A stretch of 64,000 bases of DNA, taken from assembly GCF_000176035.2 (NCBI RefSeq), contig NC_015675.1:186001-250000 (forward strand). The letters run 5' to 3'. This document shows, in pieces, positions 53,990-57,145 of this stretch. The notes beneath the pieces are model-generated. The model saw only the letters and a program-made list of their open reading frames with translations, ran no database searches and was not told the origin of the DNA. A program made the position numbers and the translations under genes. How positions within the stretch are numbered: the first letter of the stretch is position 1; each line of letters opens with the position of its first letter. The stretch comes from Mesorhizobium opportunistum WSM2075 (GTDB lineage Bacteria; Pseudomonadota; Alphaproteobacteria; Rhizobiales; Rhizobiaceae).

Positions 53990-55012
53990 ATGCTGCCATT
54001 CCTCAACTCCGCCGAAGAAAAACTGCTGCTGCGCTTCGCCGATCCGGAGGCCGCGGCAGTCGAGGACGATTTGTCGGCAAAGGCTTTGTCGGCACTGCTC
54101 GACAACGCGGAGTTTCATGGCGTTCTGCCGATCATGCTGCGCAAGCTCCATGAACGTGGCAACGCGCATCTGACATCGGATGCGAACGTGCAGAGCAAAC
54201 TTCACGAGTTGCGCCAGAAAGCGCCGATCGCCACCGGCCAATCGATGCTGCTGAATTACCATGGCGGCCGCATCATGAAGGTGCTCGCCGCCGAGGGCAT
54301 TCCGGCGCGGATCGTCAAGGGACCGGTCTTTGCGGGAAAGCTCTATCGCCACGTCACCGACAGGCCGTTCACCGACATCGACATCCTCGTCGAGCCCGCC
54401 AACCTTGCGCGGGCAAACCGGGTGATCGCTTCATGCGGCTTCGAGCTCGGCAGCAACGAGGCCGAATCCTACCAGCTGCAGGAATTCAAATGGCTGGAAA
54501 AGGGGAATTCGAGCCTGCTGGTCGAACTGCATGGCGACCTCGTGCACGACACCGGCATGCGGCGACGCCTGTCGTTGGGTTTCCGGGAATTGCAGGTCAT
54601 CGATGGAGAGGCGATAGACACCCCTGCCGCGCTGTTGACGATCGCCATCGTGCATGCCGCCGGCGGCCACAAATTCCACCGGTTGCAGCTCTGTGTCGAT
54701 GTGCTGCAGGGCGTGCGGGCACTGCAGTCACCCGATGCGGAAGCCCGCCTGCTCGACGCCGCCCGCATGACCGGCATCGAACTCGAACTGGCGATCGTGC
54801 TCAATGTGACCGGCGAGCTGTTCGGCGAGCGCCGTGCGCTTGAACTCGCCGGCCGCATCAAGCCCGACCTTTCGATAAGGCTGGCCAAACGGCTGATCAC
54901 CACGAACACGCTGCTCAGGGTCAATTCCAGGGAAAAGATCGGCTCACGCCTGCGCCGTGATGCCTTCCGCTGGATCCAGCGGCTGGCCAAGGCCAGGCCA
55001 TACCCAGCCTGA
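53990..55012 (+). CDS. Nucleotidyltransferase family protein (NTP_transf_5 type)
   Basis: The ATG at 53990 (MLPFLNSAEEKLLLRFAD) gives 340 aa. The catalytic region is ARIVKGPVFAGKLYRHVTDRPFTDIDILVEP (about residues 103-133), with the lone Lys-Gly, the R-P-F-T-D-I-D-I metal site and later ELHGDLVH. This family is found with PqqD-like, HPr-kinase-like and lasso-B2 proteins, for example in paeninodin-type lasso peptide clusters. Here it lies 62 bases behind dhaK, on the plus strand, and converges on the kinase gene with 9 bases between them. Confidence 0.82.
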   Translation: MLPFLNSAEEKLLLRFADPEAAAVEDDLSAKALSALLDNAEFHGVLPIMLRKLHERGNAHLTSDANVQSKLHELRQKAPIATGQSMLLNYHGGRIMKVLAAEGIPARIVKGPVFAGKLYRHVTDRPFTDIDILVEPANLARANRVIASCGFELGSNEAESYQLQEFKWLEKGNSSLLVELHGDLVHDTGMRRRLSLGFRELQVIDGEAIDTPAALLTIAIVHAAGGHKFHRLQLCVDVLQGVRALQSPDAEARLLDAARMTGIELELAIVLNVTGELFGERRALELAGRIKPDLSIRLAKRLITTNTLLRVNSREKIGSRLRRDAFRWIQRLAKARPYPA

Positions 55013-55021
55013 AGCTCCGGC

Positions 55022-56002
55022 TCAGTCCTGCCTGGCCAATATGGCATTTATCAGCGCCGCGGCGTCGGCCGGGCGAGCACCCACTTCCAGCGTGAAGGTC
55101 GGCACCGACGAGACCAGCTTGCCGATCGTCGCCAGCCGGCGTTTCTGCAGCGGCAGCAGGCCGGTCATGCCGGTGCGGACATTGTCCATCGCCAGCGCCA
55201 CCATCGCGTCGGTGCGGGCCATGGCGACGAGCCGCGTCTGCCTGTCGGCGGAGCGCGCCAGGTGCAGGAGGGCGGCCACGGGTCGGGCCACCGGGCTTTC
55301 GATCCGCACGATCTCGCTCAACCGCTCCAGCGAGACGGCCTGTTCGCCGTTGCGGTCCCAGGAGGGGCCAAGGCATGGCGCCACCTGCGGGATCATTTCG
55401 GCGGTTATCTGGTGGATCTTGACGTGCCGCGGCAGACCCCAGGCCACCGGCTTGCCTGAAGTCAGATCCAGGATCATGGCGTCGTCGGAGCAGAGGCCAA
55501 AGCCTTGCGTTGCCAGCGCCAGCGACGTGGTGGTCTTGCCGGTGCCGCTCGGCGCATGGATCAGCACGACGGCATCGCGGCCCGGCAATGTCAGGCCGGC
55601 CGTGTGCAGCATATGCTGGCCGCCGGCGTCGAGGGCGGCGTCCAGAACCAGCATCGATGGCGTCCATGCGGCTTTCGTGCCGGGCCGAATCCGGAGTTTG
55701 GCCCAAGCCTCCTCGTCATTGATGGCCACGGTCTGACGTCCGGGAAAGACGAGGTGGATCGTGGCACCATCGGCGATCATCCGGCAGTGGCCATCCTCCG
55801 GTATCTCGCCGTCGAAGACGAGCGAACCGCCGGGGGTCTCGTCCAGAACGTCCGCCTCGGTGATATCAAGACGAAAGCCCGGCTCGACGGGATCCGTGAT
55901 GCGCAGGACGCCCAGCATCCTGTCGAAATCCTCCCATAGGTCGGGGCGTTCGGCCGATATGCCGAGGATCTGGCCATTGAGGCCATAGCAGGCAGAGCGC
56001 AT
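55022..56002 (-). CDS. HPr-kinase-like protein kinase (HprK-related)
   Basis: The ATG at 56002 (MRSACYGLNGQILGIS) gives 326 aa. A P-loop lies at VLIHAPSGTGKTTTSLALA (about residues 170-188), followed by GLCSDDAMILDL (acidic catalytic pair) and VAWGLPRHVKIH. This is the C-terminal kinase fold of HPr kinase/phosphorylase without its full regulatory domain. Members of this subgroup phosphorylate lasso precursor peptides in paeninodin clusters or have unknown targets in the HPr-rel-A type. It follows the B2 gene by 2 bases and acts with it. Confidence 0.83.
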   Translation of the reverse strand: MRSACYGLNGQILGISAERPDLWEDFDRMLGVLRITDPVEPGFRLDITEADVLDETPGGSLVFDGEIPEDGHCRMIADGATIHLVFPGRQTVAINDEEAWAKLRIRPGTKAAWTPSMLVLDAALDAGGQHMLHTAGLTLPGRDAVVLIHAPSGTGKTTTSLALATQGFGLCSDDAMILDLTSGKPVAWGLPRHVKIHQITAEMIPQVAPCLGPSWDRNGEQAVSLERLSEIVRIESPVARPVAALLHLARSADRQTRLVAMARTDAMVALAMDNVRTGMTGLLPLQKRRLATIGKLVSSVPTFTLEVGARPADAAALINAILARQD

Positions 56003-56004
56003 GG

Positions 56005-56439
56005 TCAAGCGACGCGCACCTTTGTGGGGTCGGCATTGTGACGATAGATCTCCACCATGCCAGGAAGGCGATCGCTGACGACCGGCCTGCCATCAAGACA
56101 AACCCAGCAATGCGCCGACAGATGCGGCGCCTGCAGCGACTTCGGATCGACGCCGAAGCGCAGTTCTGGATCGAAGCCGGCGAGACGCAGGAAGCGATGG
56201 CCGAGCAGCCCCTCGCGCAGGCATCTGCGGTCGCGCATCAGCCAGGGATGGCGGACGGTGCGGCTGACCCTGGCGACGATGTAGGCGACCGGCAGACCGC
56301 GATAGGGTGTCGACGAGGCCAACGGCGCCCATTTCAGCACCTGCTCGAAGCTGCGGTTTGCAATGAGGATCGGCATCAGCCGCGCGCTTGCCCAGAGATG
56401 GCATCGAAACAGGGCACGCAGGAGCGGACCGGCGGCCAT
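56005..56439 (-). CDS. Lasso peptide biosynthesis B2-type transglutaminase-like protease
   Basis: The 144-residue protein is a Transglut_core3 protein. Cys in RDRRCLREGLLGHRFLRLAGF, His in LSAHCWVCLDG and the Asp two residues later form the Cys-His-Asp triad of lasso peptide leader proteases. PELRFGVDP precedes the His region. In lasso systems B2 cuts the leader after B1 delivers the precursor. The start is taken at the ATG at 56439, although the frame extends to 56463. It lies directly after the PqqD-like gene, in a triplicated 17-bp junction, and 2 bases before the kinase gene. Confidence 0.82.
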   Translation of the reverse strand: MAAGPLLRALFRCHLWASARLMPILIANRSFEQVLKWAPLASSTPYRGLPVAYIVARVSRTVRHPWLMRDRRCLREGLLGHRFLRLAGFDPELRFGVDPKSLQAPHLSAHCWVCLDGRPVVSDRLPGMVEIYRHNADPTKVRVA

Positions 56440-56483
56440 CACGCACCTAGCTCCATCACGCACCTACCTCCATCACGCAGCTG
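56436..56483 (-). repeat. Three 17-bp tandem repeats at the pqqD/B2 junction
   Basis: The unit CCATCACGCACCTAGCT is repeated at 56436, 56453 and 56470 with one or two changes. On the coding (minus) strand each unit reads as ribosome-site-like AGGT or GGAG followed by GTGATGG, so the stop of the PqqD gene and the start of B2 are embedded in tandem copies of a stop/start module. Confidence 0.8.
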
Positions 56484-56757
56484 GGGCCGCGAGGATGCCT
56501 TCCGAGACCAGTTCGGTGGCCAGCGCCGCCATGTCTTCGTCCAACGTGCCCTTGTCGACCTCGAACTCCTCGCAAAGCAGGCCGACGATCTGATCGAGAC
56601 TGCGCGCGCCGTCGACCTTGTCGAGAAAGGCTTCGGTCGTGCCGTTGCATGTATAGAGCTGGCCGCTGCGCGCCAGAAGCACGACAGCACCGTCGCCGAC
56701 ATGCTGGACCGAAGCGTCCTCGGCCAGCCGCAGAACCGTTCCAGAGGCAATTTCCAT
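56473..56757 (-). CDS. PqqD-family peptide chaperone (lasso B1 / HPr-rel-A type)
   Basis: The ATG at 56757 (MEIASGTVLRLAEDASVQH) with GGGGG six bases upstream gives 94 aa. The PqqD fold is visible as VVLLARSGQLYTCNGTTEAFLDKVDGARSLDQIVGLL, then a winged helix with VDKGTLDEDMAALATELVSEGIL. PqqD-type domains bind the leader of a precursor peptide and present it to modifying enzymes, here the B2 protease and perhaps the kinase. It is the first gene of the leftward PqqD-B2-kinase unit. Confidence 0.83.
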   Translation of the reverse strand: MEIASGTVLRLAEDASVQHVGDGAVVLLARSGQLYTCNGTTEAFLDKVDGARSLDQIVGLLCEEFEVDKGTLDEDMAALATELVSEGILAAPAA

Positions 56758-57028
56758 CACCAACCCCCACCAAGCCACAAGAACCCCGAAATGAGATAGC
56801 GCGGCGGTGGGGCGCTGTCTATCGGCCGGCGGGGGATGGGCTCATGCGCCTTGCGTCCGCGACAGATCCCCTGCCGGCTGCAAAATGCATCCACCACTGT
56901 TCCCAGCCGAAATCATCCCAGAAATAGTCGCCGGCGCGACGCCGCAGACAAGGGAGTTGGCCGGCGGGGCCGTTGCTTTTCTTCCCCTGAGTAAGGTAAG
57001 GACTCCCGGGGTTTTGGGGAGATAGCGT

Positions 57029-57145
57029 ATGCGTTACAATTGGGAGCGGGCTCCGACGACTTTCGAACGTCATCGAAGAGCCCTGGCGGCAGCCATTTTG
57101 ATCTTCGGCGGTGTAGGCTTCATGCTTGTGACATTGCCGATCTAG
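57029..57145 (+). CDS. Tiny membrane protein, 38 aa
   Basis: The frame MRYNWERAPTTFERHRRALA is followed by a single hydrophobic helix (AAAILIFGGVGFMLVTLPI) and a stop that lies inside a terminator hairpin. A GGGGAG site lies 7 bases before the ATG. The combination of ribosome site, amphipathic-basic head, one helix and its own terminator supports a real small gene too short for usual annotation. The function is unknown. It lies upstream of and divergent from the PqqD gene. Confidence 0.55.
   Translation: MRYNWERAPTTFERHRRALAAAILIFGGVGFMLVTLPI

Follow-up and report, generated by a model that had tools for sequence, protein, structure and literature searches.

A cyclase-free set of lasso-type maturation genes in Mesorhizobium opportunistum WSM2075 and the dispersed family of short precursor-like peptides that accompanies it

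Which peptides, if any, are served by maturation genes of the lasso peptide type when they stand without a cyclase? This question is raised by a locus of Mesorhizobium opportunistum WSM2075. The window analysed here, a stretch of 64,000 nucleotides, comprises bases 186001-250000 of the complete 6.88-Mb chromosome; at its positions 53990-56757 it contains four genes, encoding a nucleotidyltransferase (N), an HprK-like kinase (K), a leader peptidase (B2) and a discrete RiPP recognition element (RRE; B1), where RiPP stands for ribosomally synthesised and post-translationally modified peptide. Neither a cyclase nor an exporter belongs to this set. We consider it highly probable that the four genes work as one unit, which acts in trans and matures short RiPP precursors of one family, encoded at sites dispersed over the genome. 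Positions refer to the window unless the chromosome is named, and letters without further specification refer to the proteins of the set.

N (53990-55012, plus strand) is a NTP_transf_5 nucleotidyltransferase of 340 amino acids (PF14907, 91.8 bits; cut-off 31.2). It is convergent with the minus-strand operon B1–B2–K, the 3' ends facing each other. B1 (56473-56757, 94 amino acids), the first gene of the operon, has the PqqD fold of a discrete RRE (PF05402, PqqD, 44.2 bits), and in a sequence comparison with solved structures it matches best the lasso RREs TfuB1 (E 1e-6) and TbiB1 (E 0.001). B2 (56005-56439) is a transglutaminase-like cysteine leader peptidase, matched by PF13471 and by NF033537, lasso_biosyn_B2 (69.5 bits; cut-off 33); its open reading frame (ORF) extends over 56005-56463, and the likely start, the ATG at 56439, gives 144 amino acids. 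K (55022-56002, minus strand, 326 amino acids) is assigned to the HprK-like Ser kinases by weak HprK_rel_A/B matches and by motif alignments. It has no Pfam match at E 0.001, and its score against HprK_rel_A (TIGR04352), 31.3 bits, is far under the cut-off of 200. The alignments show H133, G153, G155, K156, D173 and D174 to be invariant; the first Gly of the P-loop is not kept (A150 in the window protein). H133, K156, D173 and D174 correspond to the His-Lys-Asp-Asp residues conserved in lasso kinases (PMC9266682, PMC10368454; here and below, the available parts of the cited papers). The structure model of K is confident (mean pLDDT 89.5, pTM 0.86), and its closest named database relatives, among the best 120 of 214 matches, are from Mesorhizobium. 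In a sequence search against solved structures, the K profile gave no match and the B2 profile no credible match. The Cys and His of B2 are invariant in 13/13 aligned B2 proteins and the DxD of N (D129/D131) in 14/14 aligned proteins. All four genes, as well as the DxD, had been recognised from the sequence in a preliminary description, and the family matches, weak for K, agree with it. Directly upstream of B1, the block TAGACA-16-CTATCT (56794-56821, minus strand) recurs with the same spacing in 33 of the 35 B1 upstream regions that were aligned (33 genomes); to judge from its sequence it is a putative promoter, and it leaves no space for a precursor gene between itself and B1. A fusion of B1 and B2, suggested by open frames of 233 amino acids, was rejected, as those frames read B1 out of frame.

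No lasso-type precursor was found near the window set, either by a search with NF033521, the lasso-leader family, or by a motif scan of ORFs. In the whole genome, the only NF033521 match over the cut-off is precursor A of a lasso cassette described below; the family is too weak here, since one of its eight sub-threshold matches (12.8 bits) is a dispersed precursor. A scan of 96 kb of the same genome for ORFs of 25-260 amino acids with a Y/W-xxPx-hydrophobic motif yielded 29 candidates, among which lasso precursor A alone was conspicuous; as far as compared, the remaining conserved candidates overlap called genes. When named genome contigs were scanned with the K alignment, 74 loci were obtained, mostly from Mesorhizobium, together with five distant ones (33-42%): L161 (a Hyphomicrobiales metagenome-assembled genome, MAG), L162 (Oricola indica), L163 (a Xanthobacteraceae MAG), L164 (a Rhizobiales MAG) and L165 (a Notoacmeibacter MAG). 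At four of these five (not L161), one to ten ORFs of 29-36 amino acids adjoin B1–B2–K–N; an example from L163 has the leader MKKSYTRPALVKSGQLSAVTA followed by the core GANFSGKKGKQQL. A profile built from 15 of these ORFs then detected similar ones at many set loci of Mesorhizobium, both upstream of B1 and on the far side of N, as well as a tandem pair at around 3.297 Mb on the chromosome of the window itself. Annotators have already noticed these peptides: RefSeq labels one plasmid copy as 'putative RiPP precursor' (WP_258589678.1).

Based on 129 distinct leader–core pairs extracted from the loci analysed, with a threshold of 22 bits, the precursors are about 30 residues long and consist of a leader, YxxPxLxKxxxLxx(V/I)(T/V)A, followed by a short core of variable sequence that contains a Ser. 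The Tyr and Pro of the leader are found in 129/129 by construction, as the extraction demands both. L(-12) is present in 119/129, K or R at -10 and L or I at -6 in 129/129, and A(-1) in 128/129; position -2 is mostly T (70) or V (46), and A in 10. Codon entropy in the leader is highest at the third position (1.40 vs 0.83 at the first and 0.76 at the second), the pattern to be expected for a leader conserved as protein-coding sequence. A Shine-Dalgarno-like word precedes 89/129 precursors. The cores (5-15 amino acids in 125/129) are rich in Gly, Pro and Ser and have no fixed Gly1 or Asp/Glu acceptor. Among 100 precursors outside the profile, 99 have a Ser at core positions 2-6, vs about 53% expected from composition (128 pairs, from a slightly different extraction). 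Encoded precursors with a conserved leader and a variable core, matched to an RRE, are a general feature of RiPP systems, and the system shares it.

Concerning the distribution across the genus, we analysed 119 genomes, counting a K orthologue at >=65% identity and a lasso cyclase at E <= 1e-60. Orthologues of K, B2 and N are found in one identical group of 80/119 genomes, a co-conservation beyond chance; the 119-genome counts cover these three genes, and B1 was present in 35 of the 50 loci inspected (33 genomes). Profile A4, built from 27 sequences and run on the same genomes at E <= 0.02, matches 83/119: all 80 set-bearing genomes and 3 of the 39 set-lacking ones, a near-perfect co-occurrence (Fisher p 2.4e-27, uncorrected for kinship). 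Set-bearing genomes contain 3-20 precursor copies each (median 8, total 694). In genomes with a lasso cyclase, precursors are present in 75/75 set-bearing vs 3/10 set-lacking genomes, and in genomes without it in 5/5 vs 0/29. The precursors thus go with the set rather than with the lasso cassette, as the split holds with or without the cyclase. Among the 150 matches listed, which this location split covers (547 others are not included), 25 are at most 6 kb from K, 32 are farther away on the same contig, 92 are on another contig and one is in a set-lacking genome. A search of the whole genome of the window, also proposed earlier, yields one strong lasso cyclase match, that of the cassette, and six precursors, at 2134, 2160, 3269, 3273 and 3297 kb (two), with the set at 241 kb. 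The preliminary description had put forward two possibilities, a peptide system other than a lasso system in which the leader-handling parts are reused, and a cluster with its other parts elsewhere; the precursors, which track the set and in this genome are away from it, agree with both. No PqqD or B2 match was found near the six. Ten neighbours of four of them were scanned and show no common theme: eight are metabolic enzymes or members of small secreted-protein families and two matched nothing.

Relatives are also found outside the genus. The K profile matched 17 of 397 genomes of the order, 11 of them outside Mesorhizobium and in seven genera. Nine of these 11 loci have a precursor of at least 14 bits (at L243 inside an ORF of 131 amino acids), and L245 has one at 7.2 bits and two more recognised by eye; in a reversed-sequence control the maximum was 9.7 bits, with none over 14. 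B1, B2 and K are present in all 16 distant loci (L161-L165 and L242-L252; at L242 the set genes were placed by tblastn) and N in 15 (not L161), and a lasso cyclase had no match in any of the 16. In six of them (L162-L165, L242 and L252) genes for an adenylate-forming ligase, a GNAT protein and an ACP-like protein adjoin the set, and from the nature of these genes the peptides there may be acylated. The ORF of L243 (L243:5857-6252) starts with the precursor-like leader; its later part contains SDIRLKRDI, which we take to resemble the S74 intramolecular chaperone domain of tail fibres.

Outside the window, about 25 kb downstream of the set, the chromosome contains a complete paeninodin-like lasso cassette (chromosome 265646-273124), with genes for NTP_transf (N), precursor A, B1, B2, cyclase C, kinase K and the ABC exporter D. 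Its cyclase (787.6 bits against NF033535; cut-off 525) is the sole strong Asn-synthetase/lasso-cyclase match in the genome. The leader of precursor A ends in ITQ, its core starts with GGGGNTAID and the C-terminal residue is Ser. Precursor A is 84-98% identical in six other genomes of the genus, those whose locus was available for comparison, a conservation that looks unusually high for a lasso peptide. The earlier statement that C, A and D are absent is thus correct for the set and incorrect for its surroundings. The preliminary description had also named two observations that would speak against it, a complete lasso cluster with its own B1 and B2 elsewhere and a lack of co-conservation of the four genes; the former was found, whereas K, B2 and N do occur in the same 80 genomes.

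With such a cassette close by, the set might serve the lasso peptide itself, its four proteins providing additional tailoring of precursor A. The lasso cyclase is found in 85/119 genomes and does co-occur with the set (75 genomes with both, 5 with the set alone, 10 with the cyclase alone and 29 with neither; Fisher p 2.3e-14, and p 2e-4 within one Wzx type, both uncorrected for kinship). The two share a contig in 68/75 genomes and are 25-35 kb apart in 67 of these 68; in the exception, G021, the spacing is 11.7 kb, the polysaccharide genes are not in between and Wzx is on the far side of the cassette. We nevertheless regard this explanation as very unlikely: B1, B2, K and N are all encoded in the cassette as well, the dispersed precursors track the set and not the cyclase, and in five genomes the set is present but no cyclase was matched. 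Three of these (G068, G116 and G118), the loci of which were read fully, have kept the polysaccharide locus and lack the whole cassette; in G039 and G067 the shortness of contigs or stretches makes the cassette unreadable (completeness of G067, 79%). K, N and B2 have no internal stops in the set-only genomes and are under purifying selection among them (w 0.12-0.35). The converse is seen in four of the ten cyclase-only genomes, those that were mapped: G081, G095 and G112 have an intact cassette and no set between dhaK and acs, and G034 also lacks the set, with dhaK beyond the mapped stretch. In a tree built from 26 cyclase genes, of which 16 come from genomes with the set and 10 from all those without it, five changes of the set label are required, and well-supported branches force four of them; the set and most precursors were therefore lost (or gained) more than once. 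The set and the lasso cassette are separate modules. At G101:C1:3583062-3584737 the lasso cyclase matches only as two pieces and may be broken; the window set is present there.

HPr-rel-A systems combine a PqqD-like protein, an HprK-like kinase and a nucleotidyltransferase in an exopolysaccharide (EPS) neighbourhood, and in all of these features the set resembles them. It could accordingly be read as a polysaccharide or cell-surface system of this kind, with PqqD and kinase homologues acting on a sugar or a protein rather than on small peptides. The set does adjoin an EPS locus, and a third locus of the genome (at about 421-426 kb) combines PqqD and an HprK-like kinase with glycosyltransferase- and nucleotidyltransferase-like genes and has no B2. 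Membership in HPr-rel-A, raised in the preliminary description, is however not supported by the TIGR04352 score given above; the set also has a leader peptidase and leader-bearing precursors, the dispersed family of which tracks it, and it persists across different Wzx types (in 17 of the 80 set genomes the best Wzx match is only about 40% identical, and in five there is none at that threshold). The suggested link to polysaccharide holds for position only, as the set spans Wzx types and in G021 the polysaccharide genes do not separate it from the cassette. We judge this interpretation to be distinctly improbable, although the mature peptide could end up on the cell surface. That the set is a functionless, decaying duplicate of a lasso cluster would fit the missing cyclase, exporter and local precursor in the genome of the window, but it is hardly credible: only the P-loop region of K matched the cassette kinase (34% over about 90 residues), so the set is not a recent duplicate, its genes are intact and selected in the set-only genomes, orthologues are present in 80/119 genomes and the promoter-like block in 33/35 regions.

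For a trans-acting maturation unit, a sequence of steps can be proposed by analogy with the relatives BsfK/BsfB1/BsfB2, PsmN and LppK, from which we infer the reactions, their order, the cut site and the final product. B1 would bind the leader via Y(-17)xxP(-14)xL(-12), and K would phosphorylate the conserved Ser near the core start (mostly position 3-5). In the bsf system, BsfK phosphorylates core Ser3, BsfA has YxxPxL at -17 to -12 and Ile at -2, and B1 aids both phosphorylation and cleavage (PMC10368454). B2 would cut after A(-1), which in most precursors follows T or V at -2. N might then add a further group, hexose or nucleotidyl, onto the phosphate; this proposal is modelled on PsmN of pseudomycoidin, which is credited with hexose installation on phospho-Ser (PMC9266682), and for LppN the available text of the LPP study discussed below reports no visible effect (PMC13381572). 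As the set has no cyclase, the product would be a short linear phosphopeptide without a macrocycle. A role as a cell-surface or signalling peptide would be a guess.

Several observations weigh against a maturation unit of this kind. The set lacks an exporter, and the Asp of the Cys-His-Asp triad assigned to B2 in the preliminary description is replaced in 4 of the 13 aligned proteins, although its Cys and His stand. The genomes of the genus share ancestry, so that the Fisher p value for set and precursors overstates independence, and profile A4 was trained partly on set-linked precursors. Three set-lacking genomes (G095, G112 and G114) keep one precursor each, and at L161 and L250 no precursor was seen beside the set. 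The set-bearing genomes also cluster on the cyclase tree, 8 of 500 shuffles of the label having given as low a number of changes. The six precursors in the genome of the window are unlinked to the set (about 1.9 Mb away or more) and score 45 to 22 bits, vs up to 62 for the best linked ones. In one of them no Ser precedes core position 9 (GTNGTAVTSNPQ), and another has Ser at core positions 1 and 9 (SVNGGVVVSGR).

The nearest published system is that of the linear polyphosphorylated peptides (LPPs) of Bacillota (Popov et al. 2026, PMC13381572), here as far as the available text describes it. Both have a discrete RRE, an HprK-like kinase, an NTP transferase and no cyclase, and in both the leader contains YxxP; Ser at core position 3 is phosphorylated in the studied LppA, to which the conserved core Ser of the dispersed precursors may correspond, and LPP clusters are often near paeninodin-like lasso clusters and polysaccharide loci. 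In contrast, LPP clusters have a SipW-like (SpI) signal peptidase and an MsbA-like exporter, whereas the set has a B2-type cysteine peptidase and no exporter, and no SpI was detected among ten ORFs scanned in and around it. LPP precursors number one to three, are located in the cluster and are 35-200 amino acids long, compared with about 30 amino acids and a scattered location here; the leaders also differ (YxxPxVLxHQxIxFETxxS vs YxxPxLxKxxxLxx(V/I)(T/V)A). LPPs and paeninodins are called Bacillota-restricted in the parts of that paper available (PMC13381572), while the set described here is found in Hyphomicrobiales. On two defining features the set falls outside the LPPs; by analogy, it probably works like them. 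Paeninodin/Bsf-type lasso clusters share B1, B2, the kinase and the nucleotidyltransferase with the set, as well as the position of YxxPxL in the leader, T or I/V at -2 and, in Bsf, a phosphorylated Ser3 (PMC9266682, PMC10368454); unlike them, the set has no cyclase or exporter, its cores, mostly of 5-15 amino acids, have no fixed Gly1 or acceptor Asp/Glu for a macrolactam, and there are many precursors per genome. The arrangement of the genes also has a parallel. For prochlorosins, one lanthipeptide synthetase serves many scattered precursors, so that a central enzyme, precursors in trans, a shared leader and hypervariable cores are common to both; the enzymes and the chemistry are unrelated.

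No paper on Mesorhizobium RiPP precursors, on an HprK-related kinase with PqqD or on phosphorylated Rhizobiales RiPPs was found in a search that left most subscription papers outside, and in the broader literature on lasso peptides, RiPPs, RREs and kinases only the LPP paper and lasso papers and reviews, among the titles listed, bear on the set. We lean towards a distinct RiPP class of Hyphomicrobiales, in which one chromosomal RRE/protease/kinase/nucleotidyltransferase unit would act in trans on up to 20 hypervariable linear phosphopeptides. Cyclase-less sets of 'lasso accessory' genes can serve their own overlooked peptides and need not be fragments of lasso clusters, and machinery of the lasso type may act in trans on substrates encoded at scattered sites. 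Numerous tiny ORFs of one family (129 different sequences read here), many of them unlinked to the set, are brought together in one testable system, and the idea of linear phosphopeptides is extended from Bacillota to Mesorhizobium and its relatives. Since the lasso cassette and the set often share a cell and have similar leaders, they also offer a second, independent setting for asking how RREs separate two pathways.

Concerning the surroundings of the set, a conserved ORF of 38 amino acids with one likely membrane helix is located between B1 and DUF2259 (57029-57145, plus strand). It was rejected as a substrate, being equally conserved in the set-lacking G081, G095 and G112 and missing from the set-bearing G012 and G021. 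The polysaccharide locus that separates the set from the lasso cassette contains Wzc-like, GalU-like, glycosyltransferase, Wzx, UDP-sugar dehydrogenase-like and GH16 genes, and sugar-transferase and Wza-like genes are found beyond the cassette; genes of this locus without a family scan were named by inference from sequence and order. The third PqqD and HprK-like kinase locus (chromosome 421224-426444), which contains no cyclase, continues, as recognised by eye, with three family-2 glycosyltransferase-like proteins and a NTP_transf_5-like protein of 490 amino acids.

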